DNA from: an uncultured Pseudohongiella sp.
GTDB lineage: Bacteria; Pseudomonadota; Gammaproteobacteria; Pseudomonadales; Pseudohongiellaceae
Direction: 5' to 3'
NCBI GenBank assembly: GCA_902537815.1
Contig: CACBCS010000001.1
Location: 83,213-147,212 of the forward strand
Length of the DNA: 64,000 bases
In this document: positions 7,100 through 61,641 of the stretch, piece by piece
How the letters are laid out: every line of letters starts with the position of its first letter
Numbering within the stretch: position 1 is the first letter of the stretch
Program-made: the position numbers and the translations under genes
Notes under the pieces: generated by a model
What the model was told of the DNA's origin: nothing
What the model saw: only the letters and a program-made list of their open reading frames with translations
The model's database searches: none

Positions 7100-7195
7100 G
7101 GAAGAGTATCATCCCCGGTGGGGTGCCCGGACTTCAAACCCGGTGAAGTTTGTTTATAGCAGGCTTGGTGGGTTCGACTCCTGCCTCTTCCGCCA
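7100..7195 (+). tRNA. selC: tRNA-Sec (anticodon TCA), selC
   Basis: A 96-base tRNA beginning GGAAGAG and ending CTCTTCC-G-CCA with an encoded CCA. The anticodon loop GGACTTCAAACC has TCA, which reads UGA. The D arm (ATCCCC GGTG GGGT) and the T loop TTCGACT match E. coli selC in position. The long variable arm forms a 7-bp stem, AAGTTTG with CAGGCTT, around a TTTATAG loop. On the 3' side only seven bases lie between the T stem and the discriminator, where E. coli has eight, so the acceptor stem looks like 7 bp rather than 8. The partner genes selB (16244) and selA (25111) are in the same window. Confidence 0.93.
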
Positions 7196-18263: not shown

Positions 18264-20045
18264 TCAATCGGGACGGGTGCGGTTGTATTTGACGATGTAA
18301 TAAATAAAGACAAACACAATCATCGTTGCAATCGCAAATCCGGGATTTAACAGGCCCTGATTGAGATTGACAACCCCGTAGCCGATTGAACCTGTCATCA
18401 GTGCATAGTAAAAGAACGGCAGAAGAGTTTTTCTGATCACTGCACCTTCTTTACCGATCAGTCCGGCAACAGCAGAGGCGGCAACTACGTTGTGGACACA
18501 TATGATGTTGCCTGAAGCACCACCAACTGCTTGCAGCGCCACAATCCAGGTTGGATCAACCAGGATACGCTCGCCGACCCCGAACTGGAAAAGAGAGAAC
18601 ATCATATTGCTGACGGTATTGCTGCCGGCTACGAAAGCGCCTAGCCCGCCGATAAAGGTTGCAAAGAACGGCCAGGCTGAACCGGCAAGATTTGCGACTC
18701 CCTCAGCGAGAGCGAGCGGCATTTGTTCATAGCCTGCCGCTCCACCACTGCTGTTTAAAAAGACTTGGACCATGGGCACGGTAAAAACGAGCGCCGTCGA
18801 GGCCGGCAGCAGCGTCTTCAGGGAGCTGGATAGCGCCCGTTGATACTCGGCGGCACTGAGCCTGTGCAGACCGATTGTGATCAGGCTGACCAGAATGAAA
18901 ATGGTACCGGGAGACCACAGCGGCTGGAACGAGGCAGAAATGTCACTGCCGAAAATCTCTGGCCAGCTCCAAGTGGTTAAGGGATGATCAGCGCGCAGAA
19001 AGGTTTCCAGATTCAGGACCCTGAGTCTTGTCAGTACGAGCAGTCCCGCCACAAAAACATAGGGCGACCACGCCGTAATTAAGCCCATGCTTTTTGATTG
19101 CGGCTCAACTTTGCTCTGATGCTCGCCGCTCCATTCTTTCTCCCATTGCTCTGGTGATTCGAAATCCCATGCATCGGATTTTTCAGGCATGAGGAATCCC
19201 GCTTTAGCGGAGCTGACTACAATGGCGAGCCCGATCATGCCGCCAAACATGGAGGGAAACTCCGGGCCGAGATAGGTGGCCACCAGCAGAAAAGGAATTG
19301 TCATCGCAAAAGCGGCGAACAGGGCAAACTGCCAGACCTGAAAGCCTTCAGCGAATGATCTGCTGGCGCCAAAAAATCGTGTCATCACGGAAGTAACCAG
19401 TAGAGGAATGAATGTCCCCGCCAGAGCGTGCATCAAGGCGACCTTGGCTGCAATGAATTCAAGAAATGGCTCGAACTCACTGAACCCGCGCGTTGCTGCA
19501 TAGGCAGACATGTCAGGATCCGCCGACAGCCCGGTGCTTACCCCCACTAAGATAGGGGTGCCCATCGCTCCGAATGACACCGGCGTACTTTGAATGATCA
19601 TGCCCGCCACAACCGCTGCCATGGCCGGAAAACCGAGGCCGACCATGAGCGGCACCGCGACCGCTGCGGGTGTGCCAAATCCTGCTGATCCCTCAATAAA
19701 AGAGCCGAAAAGCCAGGCAATGATGATGACCTGAATGCGGCGGTCCGGGGTGATGTCAGAAAACCCCTGGCGGATAGTGGCAATCGCGCCGCTTTGTTGG
19801 AGTGTATTAAGCAGCAAAATGGCGCCGAAGATAATGTAGATCAGGGTTCCGGCAACAATGAGGCCGTTAACGCTTGCCGCCATTATCTTTGTGCCCGAAA
19901 CCTCCCAGATAAAGTAGGCTAGGCCAGCGGCGACGACGTAAGCAATCGGCATTGACCTGCTGGCAGGCCATCTGAGTATGACCAGAAAAATGGCAACCGA
20001 AATGATCGGGAGCAGTGAAAGAAGGGCTAGGACACTGGTGCTCAT
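18264..20045 (-). CDS. L-lactate permease (LctP family)
   Basis: A 593-residue membrane protein of the lactate permease family, with about 13 helices. Diagnostic segments are [40 protein letters not shown] and [20 protein letters not shown], then [20 protein letters not shown] near the C-terminus. It imports lactate (and glycolate in some species) with H+. The leader carries an AAN-triplet motif typical of Hfq/Crc target mRNAs (20061-20080), and a GG-N10-GC match about 60 bases upstream of the ATG is a weak sigma-54 candidate. Its neighbour pyruvate phosphate dikinase would take lactate-derived pyruvate into gluconeogenesis. Confidence 0.9.
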
Positions 20046-20504
20046 GGCAAATTTCCGCCGCTGTAATTTTTATTGTTGAAGCACTGACACTGTCTTGAGC
20101 TTAGCAGATTATCGTCCAGTAGATAAACCGCGGTTCAGACAGGATTGGCGCAATTCCGCTGTTTTTGCTGCGGGGAGCAGCAAATTACGCGAGCGAGAGG
20201 ACTGTCATAGAGGGTATCGTTTCAGCTTGGTCAGACTGGAAGCGGAAGGGTTCGCTCATAGGCTGGCATTCTCGCCGGCGGCTCGTTGCTATCAGTCTGA
20301 ATAGAGCAGGGATATGAACGCCTTCCGCCGTGTTGAAGGTTGGCGCTGTGTCAGCATGGGGCCTTGCTCAAAACAACTGAAAGAGCCGAAGCCGTGGGTG
20401 AATGCAAAGCTTGCTCAGGATGGGCCGAGTCCCGGTGGCTAGCTCGGATGAGATGAACTTTCCAATACAACCTACGAACAGACTTCGGAGGATAGTCTGC
20501 CGCC
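20046..20504. other. Intergenic region upstream of lactate permease
   Basis: A 459-base stretch between lactate permease and pyruvate phosphate dikinase, both read leftward. I find no credible gene. Its left end holds the lactate-permease leader. At 20101-20120 the leftward strand has TGGAC-N7-TGCTAA, a GG-N10-GC arrangement that could be a poor sigma-54 promoter. The right end follows the dikinase stop without a clear hairpin-plus-T terminator. Confidence 0.4.
20061..20080 (-). promoter_or_regulatory. Candidate Hfq/Crc (CA) motif in lactate permease leader
   Basis: Read leftward, the leader contains TTCAACAATAAAAATTACAG, that is AAC-AAT-AAA-AAT triplets, ending 15 bases before the ATG. Hfq binds such A-R-N repeats on its distal face, and in Pseudomonas Hfq with Crc blocks translation at them. 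The first 14 bases are identical to the leader of the alanine-type symporter at 57930-57943. Function here is inferred. Confidence 0.6.
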
Positions 20505-38508: not shown

Positions 38509-39177
38509 CTACAACAAAGTCGGTTTCGGATTGAAATAGTGTGTGCCGTTTGGCAAAGACAGAATGTATGTTACCAGTTGCTCGTAGTCCTCGTCATTAG
38601 CGACGAGGTCAATCTCTGCGCTATTAACTATCAGCAATTTGGAATCCGAATAGTAGTGAAAAAACTCCGTGTAGGCCCGGTTCAACTGGTTCAGATACTC
38701 GGACTCTATCATCTGCTCTGAGGGGATCCCCCGTTTCTGAATTCTCTGCAGCAAGACTTCTGTCGGTGCCTGAAGATAGATCACAAGATCTGGTTTGGGT
38801 GCGTCAATGACAAGATGTTGATAAACCTTGTGGTACAAGTCGTATTCGTCTTTTTCCAGATTCAATTCTGCAAACAGCCTGTCCTTGTCAATAAGGAAGT
38901 CTGAGACACGGACAGGTTCGAATAAATCACTTTGTCGCGATTCTGCGATTTGTTGAGCCCGCTGGAACAGGAAAAACAACTGCGTGGCCAAGGCATACTG
39001 TCTTGGATTCTGATAGAAGCGATCGAGAAACGGATTTTCTTCAGCATTTTCCAGCAGAAGTTCATAGTTGAAGGTTTCAGCCAGGCGCTTGGTCAAACTG
39101 GTCTTGCCAACACCGATGGGCCCTTCGACTGCGATGAATCGGGGTTCCTGTTTCAGGTCTTGCAGGCCGCTGCTCAT
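38509..39177 (-). CDS. Deoxynucleoside kinase
   Basis: A 222-residue kinase of the dNK/dCK/dGK family. The P-loop is FIAVEGPIGVGKTSLTKRLA at the N-terminus; the DRY-like segment is LIDKDRLFAELNLEKDEYDL; the LID has YLQAPTEVLLQRIQKRGIP. It phosphorylates deoxynucleosides for salvage. Its start overlaps the pcnB stop as ATGA. In Pseudomonas folK occupies the place between pcnB and panB; here this kinase is the only gene in that space and folK is missing from the locus. Confidence 0.85.
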   Translation of the reverse strand: MSSGLQDLKQEPRFIAVEGPIGVGKTSLTKRLAETFNYELLLENAEENPFLDRFYQNPRQYALATQLFFLFQRAQQIAESRQSDLFEPVRVSDFLIDKDRLFAELNLEKDEYDLYHKVYQHLVIDAPKPDLVIYLQAPTEVLLQRIQKRGIPSEQMIESEYLNQLNRAYTEFFHYYSDSKLLIVNSAEIDLVANDEDYEQLVTYILSLPNGTHYFNPKPTLL

Positions 39178-40523
39178 GGATTGCTTCCTGCGGGGCGTCG
39201 CTTGCGTTGGCGCCTTCTTCTGGTTTTAGGTAAGCCTTCAATCAATTCTTGCTTTTGTATGTCATCTCCGAATTGGTAAACCGTCCACCACTCTCCACTG
39301 TCTCCGAGTGCTTCCCCCGCTGCTTCGCGAAGCAGCAGAAAGTCATAGGCTGCTCGAAAACGAGGATGATTGAGTGTCGCGTCCACTGTTTGCCGGGTTC
39401 GCGTTGTAAGTCTGCCTTGTAATTCCCAGATTTCCCGACAGGCATAGCTGATCCGCTTGGGTATCGAGGTGAATTGATTTTGTTCGGCGAGGGTCTGGCT
39501 GGCTAGTCGCAGAAACTGGGTGCTGGAGTCGAGCGATCCGCAGTCGGCCTGCCGCATGCTCAATCGCAGGGGCGGCCAGAGAAGCGCCGCAAAGAGGAAA
39601 TAGGGTGTCACTGCCTTTTCCAGCGCAATTCTTGCATCGGTGTTGCTGAAAGCCAATTCGAGTAATCTTGCTTCCTCGGGCTGGCAGTGTTCAAGCGCTT
39701 CGAAAGTTGGCGCGAGCAGTGCGTGTTTCAGGCCGCTATTGCGCAACAATTGATATGCGCTTTGACTGTAGCCGGTGGAAAATAGCTTTATTAACTCATC
39801 GAACAGACGTGCAGGGGAGATCCCGCCCAGCAGCTCAGAGAGCGATTCGACAGGAGCTGCAGTTTCATCGGAAATTTCAAAACCCAGCTTTGCCGAAAAT
39901 CTGAGGGCTCTGAGCATTCGGACCGGGTCTTCCCGGTATCGCTCCTGAGGATCTCCGATCATTCTGATCTGATGTGTCTTTAAGTCAGAGAGGGCGTTGC
40001 AGAAATCGAGCAGCTTGAAACCGTCCGTCGTGTAATACAGTGCGTTGATGGTAAAGTCTCGGCGTCTGGCATCTTCGTCGATTTGACCATAGACGTTGTC
40101 CCTGACCATTAAACCGTCTTCATTCTGAGCGGCATCCACATGCTTCAGACTTCGTCGTGGCGATTTCTCATCTACAGTGAGTTGCTTCTCTGGCGCTCCC
40201 CTGAAAGTCGTCACTTCGATGATTTCCCGGCCAAAACGTACATGCACAATTCGGAAGCGACGGCCGATAACTCGTGAATTACGAAATAATTGCCGGACTT
40301 CTTCGGGGGTTGCGTTGGTGGCTACATCAAAATCCTTCGGCTTTTCGCCAAGGAGCAAATCGCGGACGCCTCCTCCGACAAGAAATCCATAGAAGCCCGA
40401 GGCGGCAAGACGGGATAACACTTTCAGAGCATGCGGCGAAATATCCTTGCGAGATATGGAGTGCTCCTCGCGGGGAATAATCCGTGCGCTTTCGATGCCC
40501 GGTAGTTCTGCTAACTCAGGCAT
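39174..40523 (-). CDS. pcnB: Poly(A) polymerase I
   Basis: A roughly 449-residue nucleotidyltransferase that adds poly(A) tails to RNA 3' ends and promotes decay. The class II signature is FLVGGGVRDLLLGEKPKDFD, followed by VATNATPEEVRQLF; the RNA-binding helices contain RREDPVRMLRALRFSAKLGF-like text (YREDPVRMLRALRF). The C-terminus is strongly basic (KTRRRRQRKRRPAG), as in proteobacterial PcnB. The start is uncertain: ATG at 40523 looks best, but the frame is open to 40592 and PcnB often uses rare starts. The crcZ-like RNA lies just upstream, as in Pseudomonas. Confidence 0.9.
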   Translation of the reverse strand: MPELAELPGIESARIIPREEHSISRKDISPHALKVLSRLAASGFYGFLVGGGVRDLLLGEKPKDFDVATNATPEEVRQLFRNSRVIGRRFRIVHVRFGREIIEVTTFRGAPEKQLTVDEKSPRRSLKHVDAAQNEDGLMVRDNVYGQIDEDARRRDFTINALYYTTDGFKLLDFCNALSDLKTHQIRMIGDPQERYREDPVRMLRALRFSAKLGFEISDETAAPVESLSELLGGISPARLFDELIKLFSTGYSQSAYQLLRNSGLKHALLAPTFEALEHCQPEEARLLELAFSNTDARIALEKAVTPYFLFAALLWPPLRLSMRQADCGSLDSSTQFLRLASQTLAEQNQFTSIPKRISYACREIWELQGRLTTRTRQTVDATLNHPRFRAAYDFLLLREAAGEALGDSGEWWTVYQFGDDIQKQELIEGLPKTRRRRQRKRRPAGSNP

Positions 40524-40690
40524 GAGGATTCGCTGGCACGGATGTACTGGGTGGGGATTGATAAAACTGCAATGCTCGAGCCTGCTTGGCATCAGAAACC
40601 GAAGACGTCAGTCATGATACCGCGGTTTCACTGTGGATGCTCGGTGTAGTGGTGCAAGAGATGAGTGGCAGAGGAAAGCTGGAACGTTCA

Positions 40691-40713
40691 GGGGAGGCGA
40701 CTCGCGCCTCCCC
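40691..40713 (-). terminator. Strong hairpin, possible 3' end of the crcZ-like RNA
   Basis: A perfect 9-bp stem (GGGGAGGCG with CGCCTCCCC) closes a five-base loop. It directly follows the last CA motif. No T-tract follows in the leftward direction, so it is not a standard intrinsic terminator; it may instead protect a processed 3' end or only slow transcription into pcnB. Confidence 0.45.
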
Positions 40714-40959
40714 GTTGGAAGGAGTCTGTTATTGTTATTATTGCTGTTAGCAATCTGATTGTTATTGTTATTCCACAGCTGAGCAAGGTGCTCTGCCAAT
40801 TTTCTTCAGGCGGTTATGATGCAGCCTGGCGACAATCTGCCGCGTGTAGACTTGCAAACCCTACCTTATTCTTATTTAAGCACTAACCTTAGTTCGAAAC
40901 TTAGTAATGCGATTTTTGTTATTTTTAGAGCTTATTGTTGTTATTTATTATTATTGTCA
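40691..40959 (-). ncRNA. crcZ: CrcZ-like small RNA (Hfq/Crc decoy), candidate
   Basis: This leftward transcript candidate lies between cbrB and pcnB, exactly where Pseudomonas has crcZ. It begins about 12 bases after a perfect GG-N10-GC sigma-54 promoter. It holds four clusters of A-A-N triplets: 40931-40957 (AATAATAATAAATAACAAC...), 40912-40926 (AAAAATAACAAAAAT), 40757-40772 (AATAACAATAACAATC) and 40728-40746 (CAATAATAACAATAAC). The last two are separated by a small hairpin (ATTGC-TAACA-GCAAT). In Pseudomonas these CA motifs titrate Hfq/Crc and lift catabolite repression. Size would be about 270 bases against about 400 for CrcZ. The 3' end is placed at a strong GC hairpin and is uncertain. 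Confidence 0.75.
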
Positions 40960-40967
40960 GCGATTTA

Positions 40968-40986
40968 CTTGCACGTTACATGCCAA
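40968..40986 (-). promoter_or_regulatory. Sigma-54 (-24/-12) promoter of the crcZ-like RNA
   Basis: Read leftward the sequence is TTGGCATGTAACGTGCAAG, which keeps the invariant GG and GC exactly ten bases apart and matches TTGGCA and TGCAA around them. The start of transcription is expected near 40959. Upstream, between 41054 and 41107, are TTCGTTACGAA (palindromic) and a TGTTACC element, which resemble the GTAACA half-sites reported for CbrB; they could be the activator sites. CbrB is encoded directly upstream. Confidence 0.8.
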
Positions 40987-41151
40987 AAAGTAAATAGTAA
41001 ATAAAATCAGCAAGCTAACTCTGCGATGACCTAACTAAAGCTTGGTTATGGCGGAATTCGTTACGAAATAACCCGAAATTGGTGGGTAAATGGGTATCGG
41101 TAACATTTTCCAGTCGGGTAATGTCTTCCAGCCCCTACCAGAGCGACTGAT

Positions 41152-42534
41152 TTACCCCGCCGTCTTCTTTTTTCTGGGAATGCCGAATCGCTGGCGACGT
41201 TCCCACAGACACTTTCGGCTAATTCCTAATTTTCCGGCAAGTTGTGTTTCATTCATCGTGTCTTGATGTTCCAGCACGAATCGCTGGAAGTAATCTTCGA
41301 GTGACAATTCTTCGGTCGGTTCTACTGACTGGGATTGAGCTGGTGCTAAGTGGTCCGTACGCTGGAGTTCTGGCTGGGAATCCATGTCGATTGCCAGCAA
41401 TTCCTCGCCGATCTCAGCGCTCTCAGCGAGAACCACTGCTCGCTCAATCGCATTCTCCAGTTCCCGCACATTACCTGGCCAGGTGTAGGTCGCGATGGAC
41501 TGACTTGCGCCTTCACTGAACACCATAGTCGGCGCCTTCAGCCGGCGGCAGGTTCGTTGCAGGATCACATCGGCGAGTTGTAGAACATCGCTTCCGCGTT
41601 CTCTGAGAGGAGGAATCAGTAAGGTCATAACGTTGATTCTGTAGAAGAGATCTTCTCTGAACAGCCCGTCTTCTACCAGCTGTTTCAGATCTCTGTGGGT
41701 TGCTGCGACGAGACGCACATCAACCTTTCTTGACTGTACCGAACCGACCTTGCGAATTTCGTTTTCCTGCAAAACTCGAAGCAGTCGAGCCTGAGCTTCA
41801 AGAGGAAGTTCGCCGATTTCATCGAGGAATAGGGTGCCTCCGTTCGCGGCTTCTACCAGCCCTGTTCTCGTGGCTGTGGCGCCGGTGAATGCGCCTTTCT
41901 CGTGACCGAAAAGCTCCGATTCAATCAGGTTCTCAGGGATGGCAGCACAGTTTACCGAGATCATTTCCTGGCCCTCCCGATTACTCAAATCATGAATTCC
42001 CCGGGCGACCAGTTCTTTGCCAGTGCCTGATTCGCCATTGATAAGCACCGTAGAGTTCGTTAGAGCGACTTTCCGGATGCGTCGAAACAGCTCTTGCATC
42101 TGCGAACAGCTTCCGATCATGCCGGTTATTGGCGCGCACTCATCTTCGCTGCCTGCAGCGTTTTCTTGTCGCTGGCTAGGATTATCGCGAATTATTTTGG
42201 CTACAGCTTCAATGATCTCATTATGCTCGAACGGCTTGGCAATGTAATCGACCGCACCCATCTTCATAGAGTCGATGGCTGACTTGATGCTCGAGTAACT
42301 AGTCATGATCAAAACCGGCGCTGAGGTCGCTTTGATCAGATCGGTGCCGGGGGCGCCCGGAAGTCGTAAATCGCTGATGATGACGTCGAATGCGTCCATG
42401 TCGTATTTTTCCAGCGACTCTTTCACCGATCCGGCTTCGCTTACCCTGTATTCATGCCTCTCCAGAAGACGTCTCAAGGCAGCCCGAATGACCGCTTCAT
42501 CCTCTACGACAAGAATTTGATTCATCGACATCAT
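41152..42534 (-). CDS. cbrB: CbrB, NtrC-family sigma-54 response regulator
   Basis: A 460-residue regulator with three domains. The receiver (residues 1-120) has the phosphoacceptor Asp55 in [10 protein letters not shown]. The AAA+ domain (about 145-380) has Walker [16 protein letters not shown] and the sigma-54 contact loop [13 protein letters not shown]. The C-terminal helix-turn-helix is [20 protein letters not shown]. Position between cbrA and pcnB, plus the NtrC architecture, identifies CbrB, which in Pseudomonas answers to CbrA and activates crcZ. Three possible ATG starts lie within ten bases; the first is listed. It is separated from cbrA by 87 bases. Confidence 0.93.
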
Positions 42535-42621: not shown

Positions 42622-45543
42622 TCATGCTTCAGAGGCGCCAAAATACCCGGAAAAGGTCAGTATGACCTGAGTGCCGGTGCCATGCCCTTTATTGCACGGA
42701 CTCAGTATATCAATATCTCCGCCCAATTCCTCAACTATGCTGAATACCATAGAAAGTCCGAGTCCGGTGCCTTCGCCAGCTTCTTTGGTCGTGAAGAATG
42801 GATCGAAAACCCGGTCCCTGATTGCTTCGGGGATGCCAATACCATTGTCGGTAACGGTGATCTTAATCTGATCGTCAGCTTGATGGGCTGCCATGAGCAC
42901 TTCGCTGCCTGCCGCGCTGGCATCGCGTGCGTTGTTTACAAGGTTCACCATGACTTGCAGCAGTTTTTGCGCGTCACCGAGAATATTCAGGTTTTCATCG
43001 CATTGCGTGCTGATCCGGATTTCCTTGCTCTTTTTGTCAAGCGAGATCAAGGTCAAGGTTTCCTGCATGCACTGGCGTACATTGACTACTTGCTTCTCAT
43101 AGCTTCCCAAACTCGCGCCCGCATGCGCAAAATTTACCAGTGACTGAAGAATCTTTGACGTCCGGTCGGTTTGTTCAATGATCTGGGTTGCAAGCTGTCC
43201 CAGTTCCTTACCCTGATATTCATCCCGAATGGTTTGAGCGAGGCAGGCAATGCCAGTGATCGGGTTTCCTATTTCATGGGCTACCCCAGCAGCAAGCCTG
43301 CCAATTGAAGCCAGACGCTCGCTATGGGTCAGGCCTGCCTCGAGTATCTCAGTTTCGGAAATGTCTTCGATGAGCAGGATAACCCCTTCATGATTCAGCT
43401 CTCTGGGATCTGACTGATCGATGTAAGCTTTATGCAGATTGACAGATTTTTTCTGGCCGTTGAGTTGAAAATTATTCTTATAGGTATGGTGCTCATCCTC
43501 TCGGAGGAACTGATGGAGGAGCTCGTACCAGGGATTTGGCAGATCCTGTAGCTGCGATCCGACGGCCTCACCGGAATCAATTCCGGTTATCTCCGTCAAC
43601 GCCTGATTCCACATTACAATCTCGTCCTCGGTGCTCAGTGAGCAAACACCGAGGGGAAGTTCCAGTAAGACCTGTCTGTGATATCGCCGAAGATTGTCAA
43701 GATCAGCGGCCATGCCCGATAAATTACTGCGGTAAGACTCGATTCTGCTCTCAATGACATTAAGGTCTGTGCTGCCGTGTCTGGCGACGATGCTAAAGGG
43801 CAGGTAGCTGTCGATGATGTCCCCTGCTATAGACGGGCCTAGCAGCCCGGAAAGATTTGCTTCGAGGCGCCCACGCAGCAAGCGAAGCGACGAGGGACGA
43901 CTGTCGTCGTAACGAATTTTGAGATCTTTCAGTGCTTGATTGACTTCCCGGATAGCCGCTTCCTGACCAAGCGGTTTGCTCAGGGCTCGCTCGAACTCCT
44001 CGGGAGATTTTGCGACCAGTCCGCTGCGGATACGGCGACGGATGGTGTCTAGGGCACAGATGTCAGCAGAATTCCTTTCTTTATCTGTCGTGGTAGTTGT
44101 TAGGGAAATTCCAAAAAAGAGTGCTGCGTTGACCATTAGGGACAGTGCAGCGATGCTGCTCCAGTTAATGGACGTCAGAGTAATCGTCGGATCATCACCG
44201 AAAAGGGGAATCAGTAGAAATCCAAGCCAGATGGCAACGCCGCTCAGCAGGCCAGCCAGAAACCCCTTTTTGTTGCCCTGAGGCCAATACAAAATGGCGA
44301 CTATTCCGGGCAGGAATTGCAGGCCGGCAGAGAAGGCTACGGTACCTATCGCCTGAACACTAGTGGTGTTTTCAGACAGGTAGTGCACCAGGAAGCCAGC
44401 CCATATGAGTGCTGTCGTGAGGACCCGCCGGTGCCAAGCCAGCCATCTGTAAATATCCTGTTTCGCCGATGGTTGGGTGACCGGCAGAATCAGGTGGTTC
44501 AGGCACATATTCGACAATGCCAAAGTGATGACGATAATCAGGCCGCTGGCGGCAGAGAGCCCGCCCAGATAGCCAACGAGCGTCAGCATCGGGTAGTCAT
44601 AGGCAGCGCCGATGATCACTGGGAAATATTCTACCTGCACGTCGCTTCCGGACTGAATACCGGCCCACAGAATTGGCAGAACGGGGAGGCTGATTAAAAG
44701 AAAGTAGAGAGGTAATGCCCAGCTGGCAAAGGTCAGAGAGGCCTGTCCGTTACTTTCGTTGAAAGTCATGTAGAACATGTGGGGCATGGCAACGGCGGCA
44801 GTAAAAAACAACAGCGCTGAAACATGGAATGAGCTGAAATAATCTGTTTCCTTCAGTCCCGAAACCAGATCCGGTCGGGACTGAAGCCACAGGTCGATTC
44901 CGTCGAGTCCACCAAAAGCCCCGTAGACTGCGAACACCCCCACCGCGAGGTAGGCCGCAAGTTTGGCCAAAGATTCGAAGGCGATAGCCATGACCAGACC
45001 ATCGTGGCGGGTGCGACCGGCGCGGCGGGACGTGCCGAACAGAATCGCGAATAAGGTGATCAGGACGCAGAAGCCAGCGGCCACGAGGACTTCGCTGGAT
45101 TCTTCCGTCAGAAGATTTGCCGTATCGGCCACAGCACGGATCTGTAAGGCAAGCAGGGGCGTGACCCCGACCAAAATCACGATGGTGGCCACGGTTCCTG
45201 CCCAAGGTGACTGGTACCTGAAAGCCACCAGATCGGCAAGGGAACTCAATTGGTAGGTTCGCGACAGCTCCAGGAGAGGTTTTAAGAGCAGGGGCGAAAA
45301 CAAAAAAGCAAGGGAAATGCCGATGGAGTTGGCCAGGTATCCATAACCGCTTTCAAGTGCATTACCAATTGACGTGTAATACGCCCAGATGCTTGCGAAC
45401 ACACCCAGAGCCAGCACATACACAACCGGCGACTGTACGATAGAAGTCGGAATCCAGCCACGATCTGTGATGTAGGCAACACCAAAAAGCATCAGCAGGT
45501 AGCTGCTTCCCAGAATGAACAGTATGCTCAGATCAAGGCTCAT
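42622..45543 (-). CDS. cbrA: CbrA, SSS-transporter-coupled sensor histidine kinase
   Basis: A 973-residue hybrid of transporter and kinase. Residues 1-480 form about 13 transmembrane helices of the Na+/solute symporter fold. A linker, then a PAS domain (about 610-720, including LPLGVCSLSTEDEIVMWNQA) follows. The dimerisation helix has His756 in ASIGRLAAGVAHEIGNPITG. The ATPase domain shows the N box (VNLVNNARDA), TDNGIGIP, and TTKEAGEGTGLGLSMVF. In Pseudomonas CbrA senses the carbon/nitrogen state and transports histidine. It overlaps the small cbrX-like ORF. It is not CrbS, whose partner is a LuxR-type regulator. Confidence 0.93.
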   Translation of the reverse strand: MSLDLSILFILGSSYLLMLFGVAYITDRGWIPTSIVQSPVVYVLALGVFASIWAYYTSIGNALESGYGYLANSIGISLAFLFSPLLLKPLLELSRTYQLSSLADLVAFRYQSPWAGTVATIVILVGVTPLLALQIRAVADTANLLTEESSEVLVAAGFCVLITLFAILFGTSRRAGRTRHDGLVMAIAFESLAKLAAYLAVGVFAVYGAFGGLDGIDLWLQSRPDLVSGLKETDYFSSFHVSALLFFTAAVAMPHMFYMTFNESNGQASLTFASWALPLYFLLISLPVLPILWAGIQSGSDVQVEYFPVIIGAAYDYPMLTLVGYLGGLSAASGLIIVITLALSNMCLNHLILPVTQPSAKQDIYRWLAWHRRVLTTALIWAGFLVHYLSENTTSVQAIGTVAFSAGLQFLPGIVAILYWPQGNKKGFLAGLLSGVAIWLGFLLIPLFGDDPTITLTSINWSSIAALSLMVNAALFFGISLTTTTTDKERNSADICALDTIRRRIRSGLVAKSPEEFERALSKPLGQEAAIREVNQALKDLKIRYDDSRPSSLRLLRGRLEANLSGLLGPSIAGDIIDSYLPFSIVARHGSTDLNVIESRIESYRSNLSGMAADLDNLRRYHRQVLLELPLGVCSLSTEDEIVMWNQALTEITGIDSGEAVGSQLQDLPNPWYELLHQFLREDEHHTYKNNFQLNGQKKSVNLHKAYIDQSDPRELNHEGVILLIEDISETEILEAGLTHSERLASIGRLAAGVAHEIGNPITGIACLAQTIRDEYQGKELGQLATQIIEQTDRTSKILQSLVNFAHAGASLGSYEKQVVNVRQCMQETLTLISLDKKSKEIRISTQCDENLNILGDAQKLLQVMVNLVNNARDASAAGSEVLMAAHQADDQIKITVTDNGIGIPEAIRDRVFDPFFTTKEAGEGTGLGLSMVFSIVEELGGDIDILSPCNKGHGTGTQVILTFSGYFGASEA

Positions 45544-57929: not shown

Positions 57930-57949
57930 TTCAACAATAAAAACGACAG
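57930..57949 (+). promoter_or_regulatory. Candidate Hfq/Crc (CA) motif in alanine-type symporter leader
   Basis: The leader reads TTCAACAATAAAAACGACAG immediately before the GGGGA ribosome-binding site and the GTG at 57959. The AAC-AAT-AAA-AAC triplets fit Hfq distal-face binding, and 18 of 20 bases equal the lactate permease leader at 20061-20080. Binding there would hide the ribosome-binding site. Confidence 0.6.
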
Positions 57950-57958
57950 GGGACTTTC

Positions 57959-59617
57959 GTGGACGCAGTGAATAACTTTTTAATATATATCGATGGTTTC
58001 CTGGGCAGCGCGATCTGGTTCCCGACGTTTTTGCTGGCAACCGGTATCTTTTTCACGTTATACCTCGGGTTCCCGCAGATTCGTTACTTCAGGCATGCGA
58101 TCGGTGTCACCACGGGAAAATTTGACAAGGAAGGGGCGAAGGGCGACACCTCCCACTTCCAAGCCCTTGCGACCGCGCTCTCGGGCACTGTCGGTACCGG
58201 CAACATCGGCGGCGTAGCTCTTGCTTTGCACCTTGGCGGTCCCGCCGCCTTGTTTTGGATGTGGATGACCGCTTTCTTTGGGATGACCAGCAAATTCGTC
58301 GAGGTCACACTGTCGCATAAGTACAGGAATGAAACTGCAGACGGCACAATGGCTGGCGGCCCCATGTATTACATGGAGAAGGGTCTCAATGCGAAATGGT
58401 TAGCGGTTGTGTTCGCTGTTGCCACAGTATTGAGCTCATTCGGAACTGGCAATCTTCCGCAGATCAACAGTATTGCTTCAGGGCTGGAGAGCACGTTTGA
58501 TCTCGATCCCCTCATTACGGCAAGCGTGCTTTCAGTCCTTCTCGCTCTGGTAATCATTGGCGGAATAACCCGTATCGCAAAGGTCGCTGCAGCGATAGTG
58601 CCCACAATGGCAATGATTTATCTGATCGGAGCATTCGCCGTCATCATCCCGAATATCGGCAACATCATTCCTTCATTTTTATCAATTTTCAGTAATGCCT
58701 TTTCCGGCTCAGCCGCTGCGGGCGGGTTCCTCGGTGCGTCATTTGCGTATGCATTCGACCGGGGTGTAAATCGCGGGCTGTATTCCAATGAGGCGGGTCA
58801 AGGGTCAGCCCCGATTGCGCATGCCGCAGCGCGCACTGATGAGCCTGCGGATGAGGGCATGGTGTCCATTCTTGAGCCGTTTATTGACACGATCGTGATT
58901 TGCACGATTACCGGATTGGTGATTCTCTCTTCCGGTGTCTGGATGGAAAAGTTCGAAAACGAATTTCAGCGGGCAGACATGAGCTTTGTTACCGGCACCT
59001 ATACTGAGGCTGACGCCGATGATGTCGCCAGCTTATTTTCCTACCTAAGTGGCGAGGAATCCGATACCCGAAGTTATAGCGGTCAAATTGAACTGATCAA
59101 TGGTTTGCCTCAGAACAACGAGGCGTTCACGCTGATTGCTGCCCGTTCACTGGCAGAGAATACACGTTACTCACATGAGGGTGAGCTTATCACCGGCACC
59201 CTGAATGTGTTTGATGGGCAGCTGGAGGATTTGACTGTCGTTGTCACCGGAGATTCGCTTCTGCATTCAGTGCCGCTCACCACTCAGGCATTCACCAAGG
59301 GTCTGTTTGGACAGTATGGCCAATACATCGTCTCCATCGGATTGATGTTGTTTGCATTTTCCACAGCGATTGCCTGGTCCTACTATGGGGATCGCGCCAT
59401 GACTTATCTGTTCGGTACGAGATCCGTTCTGCCTTATCGAATTGTCTATGTGGTCGGATTTTTCACCGCTGCGCTTGCAGACACAACGATTGTCTGGAAC
59501 ATCTCCCTAATTACCATTGTGCTTATGACCGTGCCGAATCTGGTCGGTATTCTGCTAATGCACAAGGAAATGAAATCCACGGTGGCAGAGTACTGGGAGA
59601 GAGCGAACAGAAGCTGA
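57959..59617 (+). CDS. Sodium:alanine/glycine symporter (AGCS family) with loop insertion
   Basis: A 552-residue symporter. The family signature is [20 protein letters not shown], then [20 protein letters not shown], and later [20 protein letters not shown]. The C-terminal half has [19 protein letters not shown]. Between about residues 325 and 445 there is a soluble stretch (for example [19 protein letters not shown] and [20 protein letters not shown]) that ordinary AGCS proteins lack or have much shorter, which explains the extra length. It starts at GTG with GGGGA upstream and is probably repressed through the CA motif in its leader. Confidence 0.88.
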
Positions 59618-59634: not shown

Positions 59635-61323
59635 CTAGCGCTTGATGGCTTCTCCGGGAAGTCTGATGTCTTCAACGATGGCCTGCACGTCTTCGGGCGG
59701 CTCCGGTGTAAAGGAGGCCACCAGCCAGGCGACTGCGAGATTGATCAGAGTTCCGAACGTGCCGATGCCCTCCGGTGAGATTCCCAGCAGCCAGCCCTGT
59801 GCATTATCCATTGCGGGGTTCAGGCTCTTAAAGTAGATGATATACCCGGCAGTGAACAGAAAACCGGCTATCATGCCGGCAATGGCCCCCTGTTTGTTCA
59901 TGCTTTTTTGGAAAATACCCAGGACAATCGCTGGAAAAAATGACGCGGCAGCCAGCCCGAATGCGTAGGCCACCACCTGGGCGACATAGGCGGGCGGATT
60001 GATCCCCACATAGCCGGCGACCAGCACCGCAATAAATATTGCCATACGGGCATAGAGCAACTCCTGCTTTTCCGAGATGTCTGGCATAAAGCTACGCTTC
60101 ATCAAGTCATGAGCCACAGAGGTTGAAATCACCAGGAGTAATCCGGCTGCGGTGGACAGCGCAGCAGCGAGGGCTCCTGCCGCTACCAACGCCACGACCC
60201 AGTTCGGCAAGTTGGCGATTTCAGGGTTGGCCAGCACCATGATATCCCGATTCACTTCGAGTTCATTTGTCTCGGGATCTCCGACATACTGAATGCGGCC
60301 GTCACCATTCTTGTCGTTGAATGAGATCAGGTTGGTGGTCTCCCATTTGCTGAACCACTCCGGCATAGCTGTGTATTCTGCATTGTTAACGGTGTTGATT
60401 AAGTTGGTACGAGCAAATGCGGCAACAGCGGGCGCAGTCGTGTAGAGAATTGCGATGAAAATAAGTGCAAAACCTGCTGACCTTCGTGCGTCTCGGACAT
60501 TAGGCACGGTAAAGAAGCGGATGATTACATGAGGTAAACCAGCGGTGCCGAACATCAGTGCGGCAGTGATAAAGAACACATCCTGCGTACTGCGTTGTCC
60601 CTCTGTGTAGACGGCGAAGCCCAGTTCCTGACTTATTCCGTCCAGTCTGTCCAGCAAGTAGCCACCGCCAAAAGCTTCTGTCAATTCGGCACCGAATCCT
60701 ATTTGTGGAATGGGAATGCCCGTCATCAGGATGGAAATAAAAATTGCCGGCACCATGAAAGCGAAGATCAGTACGCAGTATTGCGCTACCTGGGTGTAAG
60801 TAATCCCCTTCATTCCTCCGAGAACCGCGTAGAAGAAAACGATTGCCATGCCGATGATGACGCCTGCGGTGATATCGACCTCAAGAAACCTTGAGAAGAC
60901 GATTCCGGCACCCTGCATCTGACCGCACGCGTAGACAAATGACACCGAAATGGCGCAAAAAACCGCGATCAGTCTGGCCGTTCTTGAATAGTAACGATCC
61001 CCTATGAAGTCAGGGACAGTGAATTTGCCAAATTTCCTGAGATAGGGTGCGAGCAGCAGGGCGAGCAAGACATACCCTCCTGTCCAGCCCATCAGATAAA
61101 ACGTGCCGTCTCTGCCAAGAAAGGAAATCAGCCCGGCCATGGAAATAAAAGAGGCTGCGGACATCCAGTCTGCAGCGGTTGCCATGCCATTAGCCAGTGG
61201 CGGTACACCGCCGCCTGCGACGTAGAAATCAATGGTCGAGCCGGCACGGGACCAGACTGCTATGCCGATATACAGCCCGAATGTCAGAAAGACAAAAATA
61301 AACGTCCAGATCTGTACGCTCAT
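59635..61323 (-). CDS. Sodium:solute symporter (acetate-type, DUF4212-associated)
   Basis: A 562-residue SSS-family carrier with about 13 helices. N-terminal GGGVPPLANGMATAADWMSA and AASFISMAGLISFLGRDG, followed by VPDFIGDRYYSRTARLIAVF, fit the acetate/monocarboxylate branch (VC_2705-like). A polar insertion, NDKNGDGRIQYVGDPETN (about residue 330), resembles an EF-hand-like loop. It overlaps the DUF4212 gene by four bases (ATGA) and is therefore co-translated with it. With acs in the same genome region, acetate or a related acid is a fair guess as substrate. Confidence 0.88.
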   Translation of the reverse strand: MSVQIWTFIFVFLTFGLYIGIAVWSRAGSTIDFYVAGGGVPPLANGMATAADWMSAASFISMAGLISFLGRDGTFYLMGWTGGYVLLALLLAPYLRKFGKFTVPDFIGDRYYSRTARLIAVFCAISVSFVYACGQMQGAGIVFSRFLEVDITAGVIIGMAIVFFYAVLGGMKGITYTQVAQYCVLIFAFMVPAIFISILMTGIPIPQIGFGAELTEAFGGGYLLDRLDGISQELGFAVYTEGQRSTQDVFFITAALMFGTAGLPHVIIRFFTVPNVRDARRSAGFALIFIAILYTTAPAVAAFARTNLINTVNNAEYTAMPEWFSKWETTNLISFNDKNGDGRIQYVGDPETNELEVNRDIMVLANPEIANLPNWVVALVAAGALAAALSTAAGLLLVISTSVAHDLMKRSFMPDISEKQELLYARMAIFIAVLVAGYVGINPPAYVAQVVAYAFGLAAASFFPAIVLGIFQKSMNKQGAIAGMIAGFLFTAGYIIYFKSLNPAMDNAQGWLLGISPEGIGTFGTLINLAVAWLVASFTPEPPEDVQAIVEDIRLPGEAIKR

Positions 61324-61613
61324 TGCGCTTCCTCCCCGTTTTCGGCGGTTTTGACTTCATCTTGATTCAGATTATAGGCGTCGTCGAGTTTATCCATCAG
61401 GTAGATGTACACATAGACAAGAATGACAAAGACAAAGATCGCGCCCTGCTGCGCAATCCAGAATCCCAATTTGAAGCCGCCAATCCGGATGTCATCTAAA
61501 GTGTCCACCAGCAAGATGCCGCAACCGAAAGAGATAAAGAACCAAACTCCCAGAAGAGACAAGACGATTCTGATGTTAGATTTCCAGTACTCGAGGGCAT
61601 TCTTGTCGGACAT
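61320..61613 (-). CDS. DUF4212 small subunit of the solute symporter
   Basis: A 97-residue protein with two helices (VLSLLGVWFFISFGCGILLV and GAIFVFVILVYVYIYLMD). N-terminal SDKNALEYWKSNIRIV is the DUF4212 pattern; such proteins always accompany SSS carriers of the type encoded next. I chose ATG 61613, with AAGGTGG six bases upstream; a GTG at 61622 is in frame but would overlap that site. The ribosome-binding site is fused to a CA motif. Confidence 0.88.
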   Translation of the reverse strand: MSDKNALEYWKSNIRIVLSLLGVWFFISFGCGILLVDTLDDIRIGGFKLGFWIAQQGAIFVFVILVYVYIYLMDKLDDAYNLNQDEVKTAENGEEAQ

Positions 61614-61621
61614 TGAGACCA

Positions 61622-61641
61622 CCTTGTTGTTATTGTTTGTG
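61622..61641 (-). promoter_or_regulatory. Candidate Hfq/Crc (CA) motif fused to the DUF4212 ribosome-binding site
   Basis: Read leftward: CACAAACAATAACAACAAGG, that is AAC-AAT-AAC-AAC-AAG, whose last triplet is the start of the AAGGTGG ribosome-binding site for ATG 61613. Binding of Hfq/Crc here would directly block initiation of the DUF4212/symporter mRNA. This is the strongest of the three leader motifs in the window. Confidence 0.7.

Follow-up and report, generated by a model that had tools for sequence, protein, structure and literature searches.

A predicted CrcZ-class decoy RNA between cbrB and pcnB in an uncultured Pseudohongiella, a member of a family group in which no canonical Crc was found

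The regulatory pair CbrAB and the small RNA gene crcZ are described as exclusive to Pseudomonas and Azotobacter in a 2022 review (PMC8871633; cited, like the other papers below, from excerpts). When P. aeruginosa Hfq was tested in E. coli, it sufficed to repress amiE, and in vitro it was titrated by CrcZ; Crc of P. aeruginosa has an ancillary role, full repression in vivo depending on it (PMC4063720). A version of this circuit that works without Crc is therefore plausible. In P. putida, CbrB recognizes a forward half-site, TGTTAC, and a reverse half-site, GTAACA, with the R2 site of crcZ reading GTAACg (PMC6296734). Among the titles and abstracts listed from the open-licence PMC literature, we found no report of CrcZ or CbrAB outside the Pseudomonadaceae, nor a paper there that treats Pseudohongiella and catabolite repression together; cbrAB transcripts have been detected in mesopelagic sea water, with no host named in the excerpts (PMC5073097), and the excerpts of PMC5295007 carry CrcZ in the reference list only.

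In the window, i.e., the whole stretch of 64,000 nucleotides from an uncultured Pseudohongiella assembly that was analysed here, we identified a predicted CrcZ-type RNA of about 269 nt (40691..40959, minus strand), based on a match to the Rfam CrcZ model and on conservation in relatives. This RNA lies in a 559-base gap in which a σ54 promoter is followed by six minus-strand A-A-N runs and then by a terminal GC hairpin. The gap is bordered upstream by cbrB (41152..42534, minus), which encodes a σ54 enhancer-binding response regulator identified by its Response_reg and Sigma54_activat domains and by its relatives, and downstream by pcnB (39174..40592, minus), which encodes a poly(A) polymerase with PolyA_pol domains. 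A 973-aa sensor kinase with HisKA and HATPase_c domains is encoded at 42622..45543 (minus); its transporter half had no Pfam match at E ≤ 0.001, and the name cbrA is therefore given by position and length only. No open reading frame of at least 80 codons is listed inside the gap and stops occur in all three frames, and a coding gene there was rejected. Two further features of the window are a gene of the deoxynucleoside-kinase family (38509-39177, minus), which overlaps pcnB by 4 bases and lies between pcnB and panB, a place occupied by folK in Pseudomonas, and a selenocysteine tRNA (7100-7191, plus; 64.5 bits). Our main reading, to which we give a probability of roughly 0.85, is that the gap encodes a stand-alone, trans-acting RNA of the CrcZ class, which would be driven by CbrB and σ54 and would titrate Hfq off the mRNAs of uptake genes, probably without Crc.

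The Rfam CrcZ model (RF01675) matched the gap over its full length (40957-40659) with 26.9 bits and an E-value of 2.5e-5, under the curated gathering cut-off of 95 bits, and no CrcZ match was obtained in the window at the gathering threshold; the expectation in the preliminary description that similarity searches would miss this RNA thus holds at the curated threshold and fails at an E-value threshold. The same gap gave the sole CrcZ match in the 2.14-Mb host assembly (E = 2.3e-5), and none of 14 control genomes had a match. A search of 97 genomes with the model yielded 23 matches in 21 genomes, two of them above the Rfam cut-off (G080 and G061). Nineteen of the 23 matches adjoin the cbrB gene of their own genome, according to coordinates compared by hand, and four do not (one in G061, two in G067, and one in G073); the match in G061 probably represents the usual locus, because it is located at a contig start and the contig with cbrB ends 365 bases after this gene. 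Matches to SorY (E = 0.82) and eiav_FSE (E = 3.5) in the gap are weak and were taken as chance. Judged from sequence, by locus and architecture, the RNA is a divergent CrcZ homologue that falls below the line of Rfam membership.

When a run is defined as at least four A-A-N triplets on the minus strand, runs 1 to 3 are found at 40955-40944, 40942-40931, and 40926-40912 (together 40912..40955), run 4 at 40865..40876, run 5 (AATAACAATAACAAT) at 40758..40772, and run 6 (AATAATAACAATAAC) at 40728..40742; run 2, read in another phase, comprises five triplets (40945-40931). With the first three runs merged, these are the four leftward-read clusters noticed previously. Several A-rich (A-R-N)n stretches, a trait of the CrcZ family, are thus present. 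The 559-base gap contains 12 AAYAAYAA words, compared to a mean of 0.14 and a maximum of three in 2000 dinucleotide shuffles, and six runs of at least four triplets, compared to 0.06 in dinucleotide shuffles of the gap; four of the six runs of at least five triplets found on both strands of the whole window fall in this gap. Among the stretches listed, the best 281-base stretch outside the RNA region contains three words. The bias extends to other genomes: at 66 loci where pcnB was found and the gap measured at least 250 bases, AAYAAYAA occurs 503 times in sense and 11 times in antisense orientation, with at least one word at 64 of these loci.

The array is preceded by a σ54 promoter (TGGCATGTAACGTGCA, 40970..40985, minus), which was read directly, is conserved in relatives, and stands ahead of the clusters as initially proposed; transcription is predicted to start around 40959, 12 bases past the GC of this site. 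The pattern TGGCAYRN5TGCW occurs once in the whole window and at least once in 32 of 100 shuffles, so the weight of the promoter comes from its position and conservation. Two putative CbrB half-sites are present upstream at crcZ spacing, F1 (TGTTAC, 41100..41105, minus), 120 bases upstream of TGGC, which is conserved in position and follows the P. putida consensus (PMC6296734), and R2 (GTAACG, 41059..41064, minus), 79 bases upstream of TGGC, which has the letters of the P. putida crcZ R2 site (PMC6296734). An exact R1 site (GTAAC near -103) is absent in the window, R2 being the only GTAAC upstream in the gap; R1 is present at most Pseudomonas loci examined. We surveyed the best 80 named loci, of which 42 were classified as Pseudohongiella-like by CbrB identity (a grouping of our own) and 38 as other (37 from Pseudomonas or Stutzerimonas and one assembly, L210). 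The σ54 pattern was found at 34 of the 42 Pseudohongiella-like loci, 29 of which also have TGTTAC at -119 to -121 and GTAAC at -79 or -80, and 37 of the 38 other loci have TGTTAC at -121 to -126 and GTAAC at -79 to -82. Where the whole gap was available among these best 80, at least three sense words were present at 36/36 and 35/36 loci of the two groups, and no locus had three antisense words. The named records and the genomes analysed below are not independent sets, because many are probably the same genomes.

Host CbrB is 98% identical to proteins from an uncultured Pseudohongiella and an unclassified gammaproteobacterial assembly, and 80% identical to that of an OM182 assembly; the NCBI taxonomy places Pseudohongiella in the Pseudohongiellaceae, Pseudomonadales. 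The group formed by the host and 60 genomes (G001-G060) was treated as a family rather than a genus, because the identity of CbrB orthologues drops to 58% within it, and it probably corresponds to the Pseudohongiellaceae. Loci with CbrB orthologues were obtained from 89 of 97 genomes, the eight left out having weaker CbrB relatives only (G007, G015, G034, G037, G051, G053, G078, and G084), and an array was scored as present when at least three runs of four A-A-N triplets were found. Among the 55 loci of the family group, the array is present at 40, weak at three, absent at seven, and unreadable at five that lie at contig ends, which gives 40 of 50 readable loci and shows conservation of the triplet clusters in close relatives. 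Among 34 loci from other families, represented by one genome each, the array is present at 22, weak at five, absent at four, and unreadable at three (22 of 31 readable); four of those scored as present (G071, G088, G092, and G093) have no recognized pcnB, and scoring there covered the 1000 bases that follow cbrB; in one of those scored as absent (G096), the CbrB match reaches 38% and may not be an orthologue. The view that Crc-type RNAs are confined to the Pseudomonadaceae, repeated in the preliminary description, is hence accurate as an account of the published literature (PMC8871633) and does not fit the spread of the locus through the order.

The seven members of the family group that lack the array are G018, G021, G022, G030, G033, G038, and G057, and their nuclease-type Crc relatives (see below) form one clade that includes G037, G021 having no row in the tree; the RNA-less subclade represents one evolutionary event. 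Individual genomes showed other arrangements. Two sets of σ54 site and A-A-N runs occur in a single cbrB-pcnB gap in G065 (L104) and G089 (L094), possibly representing tandem decoy RNAs, and G067 carries a copy (L004, G067:C154) on a contig other than that of cbrB, where a σ54 site with GGTAACA upstream, A-A-N runs, and a U-tracted terminator were read by eye; the end of a tRNA suspected by eye upstream of this copy was rejected, since ARAGORN found no tRNA. Eleven A-A-N runs occur in the 1000 bases past cbrB in G088 (L096), where canonical Crc was not found, and G068 (L089), which has a Crc-clade protein, keeps a σ54 site after cbrB with no A-A-N runs in its 288-base gap.

The RNA stretch folds better than shuffled sequences (z = -2.95). 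Hairpin 1 (40880..40910, minus) is conserved, with 93% of cells paired in 33 sequences, i.e., those of the 55 family loci with a recognizable 5′ end. Its covariation is weak, as the count of pairs changed on both sides was reached by 25 of 500 shuffles and the covariation score by 95 of 500; RNAalifold, applied to the 5′ module, gave a consensus of five pairs, none changed on both sides, and structure was therefore not taken as strong support. The weak covariation is what might be expected if the gap were simply AT-rich intergenic sequence with fortuitous A-A-N runs and no functional RNA, an explanation that we find barely credible given the shuffle statistics, the 503:11 strand bias, and the conserved position of the runs behind the σ54 site.

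At its 3′ end, the RNA is closed by a hairpin with a 9-bp GC stem (GGGGAGGCG-CGAGT-CGCCTCCCC, 40691..40713, minus), a probable terminator; the predicted start and the end of this hairpin agree with the limits given in the preliminary description (40691-40959). No U-tract follows the hairpin in the window and a terminator scan of the gap was empty. Together with the location directly upstream of pcnB, this missing U-tract could suggest that the A-rich sequence belongs to pcnB as its 5′ leader and serves in cis as a site for control of poly(A) polymerase by Hfq. We consider such a leader improbable, as U-tracted terminators close the RNA in the relatives G012 and G025, the G067 copy has its own σ54 site and a U-tracted terminator (by eye) away from the cbrB contig, and the first aligned residue of pcnB comes 0-79 bases after the stop of cbrB in the seven array-less family members. 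The tandem sets in G065 and G089 and the off-contig copy in G067 favour action in trans over a pcnB leader.

The preliminary description had proposed a decoy for both Hfq and Crc, of which the Hfq part is supported and the Crc part is not. The host protein most similar to Crc (L013, G000:C14) is 49% identical to P. aeruginosa Crc, and among PDB entries it scored higher with Neisseria NApe (297 bits) than with Crc (272 bits). In a tree of 98 proteins, P. aeruginosa Crc falls inside a clade of 25 rows (support 100/99), to which 24 of the 36 other sampled families contribute one member each. The 55 rows of the family group, including the host, fall in a separate clade of 62 rows (97/89) together with nuclease-type paralogues, some of which are second copies from families that have Crc as well. 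G018 has a second protein, placed by the tree as xthA-like, and the RNA-less G033 has two copies of the nuclease-type relative (L253 and L255); outside the tree, G087 has a partial second profile match that is Crc-like (59% identical to the Crc of G090 over 129 residues). Host L013 has intact active-site letters (LQET, DWN, and SDH), and the active-site residue D245 is kept in 66/66 nuclease-type rows versus 5/25 Crc-clade rows. Each of K77, A78, K135, K139, R140, and R141 is kept in 24 or 25 of the 25 Crc-clade rows; the host protein has L, K, G, K, R, and R at these positions, with K77, A78, and K135 missing, and R140 is kept in 19 of 55 family rows.

A profile built from nine Crc-clade proteins returned a single match, the nuclease-type gene, in each of 23 genomes of the family group, and two matches in each of the positive controls (G063 and G080); completeness is 90-100% for 22 of the 23 genomes and 71% for the host assembly, in which the absence of Crc, taken alone, would not be secure. 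A query with the host protein (E ≤ 1e-20) gave no placed match of the family group in the Crc clade, with six of 61 genomes lacking a match and partial matches in G005 and G010 not all placed. At the level of these searches, canonical Crc was thus not found in the family group (Pseudohongiellaceae). In a further six genomes, the RNA is present and we could find no protein of the Crc clade (G076, G081, G085, G088, G092, and G093, with pcnB unrecognized in the last three), and three show the reverse, a Crc-clade protein and no array after cbrB (G068, G069, and G096). The weak second profile matches of G085 and G092 and the sole match of G093 were rejected as Crc because they are xthA-like (56-60% identical to the xthA-like protein of G080).

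Both hfq and rpoN are present in the host genome. Host Hfq (L314) keeps Y25, L26, I30, K31, L32, Q33, Q52, and T61, residues whose roles as A-R-N contacts come from cryo-EM work (PMC6422490), leaving an intact distal face that the A-A-N runs of the RNA would be expected to bind, thereby titrating Hfq. Conceivably, the RNA acts on an Hfq/Crc-type complex in which the nuclease-type relative (G000:C14) doubles as co-repressor throughout the family. Besides its 49% identity to Crc, the host protein keeps the motif RRKRRE, which matches Crc 137-142 and includes R140 and E142, residues at which exchanges weaken repression in P. aeruginosa (PMC6422490); moreover, this motif is degraded in 8/8 rows of the RNA-less subclade. 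We nevertheless judge such a double role unlikely: the protein lies outside the Crc clade, among nuclease-type paralogues, with LQET, DWN, and SDH intact; L, K, and G replace K77, A78, and K135, and R140 is found in just 19/55 family rows; and the host has alanine in place of Hfq T49, a contact of Crc A78 in one assembly (PMC6422490). RRKRRE was dropped as a mark of Crc, since the nuclease paralogues of G072 and G091, genomes that encode Crc separately, contain it too, and several RNA-bearing members of the family (e.g., G025, G044, and G046) lack it.

Three candidate Hfq sites near uptake genes were identified inside the window. One (AACAATAAAAAT, 20066..20077, minus) is located 21-32 bases before the start of a gene encoding a 593-aa L-lactate permease (18264..20045, minus; Lactate_perm), another (AACAATAAAAAC, 57933..57944, plus) precedes the start of a Na/alanine symporter gene (57959..59617, plus; Na_Ala_symp), and the third (AACAATAACAACAAG, 61623..61637, minus) abuts the first start codon of a putative target operon (59635..61622, minus) that encodes a DUF4212 small subunit (61320-61622) and a sodium/solute symporter of the SSF family (59635-61323). 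In a host sample of 398,582 bases with 322 called genes, whose start codons were assigned by a simple script, four A-A-N triplets in a row at -45 to +30 of the start were found in sense orientation at six genes and in antisense orientation at none. Four of the six are uptake genes (an SSF symporter, the L-lactate permease, the Na/alanine symporter, and the DUF4212-SSF operon), the other two being gluconate dehydrogenase subunit 3 and a gene without a Pfam match. A sample from G011, which has the RNA, contains three such genes, including the same SSF symporter and lactate permease, and a sample from the RNA-less G057 contains one.

Three of these gene families were compared across orthologues in 60 genomes, 39 of them from the family group, using the rows with loci (30 of 35 for the lactate permease, 29 of 31 for the SSF symporter, one partial row being dropped, and 30 of 49 for DUF4212-SSF). 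Rows were assigned by tree, "RNA-less" comprising the array-less subclade and G037 and "RNA-positive" all others, including several with an unreadable or weak gap or with no cbrB found. At least three A-A-N triplets are present at the start in 24/26 RNA-positive versus 1/4 RNA-less lactate permeases, 12/25 versus 0/4 SSF symporters, and 17/26 versus 0/4 DUF4212-SSF operons (pooled Fisher p = 1e-4), compared to 0/89 in the antisense control for the three families together. The RNA-less subclade is one event, and its G+C is higher (G057 sample, 0.588; host, 0.526; G011, 0.550), so the contrast is not independent and the antisense control is the better argument. Over all genes, at least three triplets at the start were found 10 times in sense and five times in antisense orientation in the host (of 322), 11 and two times in G011 (of 344), and six and five times in G057 (of 325); given the host ratio, a wider regulon is unproven. 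Genome-wide, AAYAAYAAYAA has 22 matches in the host, seven inside this RNA; of 14 other sites, six are no farther than about 40 bases from a possible start, two of these belonging to the symporters of the window, and eight are located within coding sequence or run antisense to an open frame.

By analogy with P. aeruginosa and P. putida, the trans-acting RNA of our main reading may operate as follows. Exhaustion of good carbon sources would lead CbrA to activate CbrB, which, bound to the TGTTAC/GTAACG half-sites, would promote σ54-dependent transcription of the approximately 269-nt RNA. The A-A-N runs would fill the distal face of Hfq hexamers, and Hfq would be drawn away from A-A-N stretches at uptake-gene ribosome-binding sites, allowing translation of the lactate permease and of the sodium/solute and sodium/alanine symporters. 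Because no canonical Crc was found in the family group, the decoy probably acts on Hfq alone there; the nuclease-type Crc relative may assist, or not.

These observations place an array after cbrB in a marine family and in 22 further families of the order, of 31 that were readable, compared to the published limit of Pseudomonas and Azotobacter. A broader proposal, to which we assign even odds, is that CrcZ-class RNAs are a trait of the whole order Pseudomonadales with no need of Crc; RNA, CbrB, and Hfq would form a self-sufficient catabolite-repression circuit in the Pseudohongiellaceae and six other sampled families, and Crc, joined by the tree to nuclease-type paralogues, would be a co-repressor added in part of the order. 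Families that have the RNA and lack Crc would be a natural setting in which to test the contribution of Crc beyond that of Hfq, and the finding predicts which transporters are kept shut by this uncultured clade until better food is exhausted.

Compared to the described decoys, the predicted RNA is most like CrcZ of Pseudomonas and Azotobacter, with which it shares the order cbrB-crcZ-pcnB, CbrB half-sites, a σ54 promoter, an A-rich 5′ start, repeated A-A-N clusters, and a terminal GC hairpin; the term CrcZ-like used in the preliminary description is supported by this synteny, by half-sites near the Pseudomonas spacing, by the weak but unique Rfam match, by conservation, by the presence of hfq and rpoN, and by the candidate target sites. 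As that description also stated, length and the sequence outside the motifs differ, with about 269 nt predicted here versus 407 nt for P. aeruginosa CrcZ (PMC4063720), a different sequence between the clusters, a sub-cut-off Rfam score, and a host family without canonical Crc. CrcY and CrcX resemble the predicted RNA in being CbrB/σ54-driven, A-rich decoys. Their loci are distant from cbrB, an arrangement of which we examined one stand-alone copy, that in G067. RsmY and RsmZ, the decoys of the Rsm/Csr system, share the logic of titrating an RNA-binding regulator and act on another protein through another motif.
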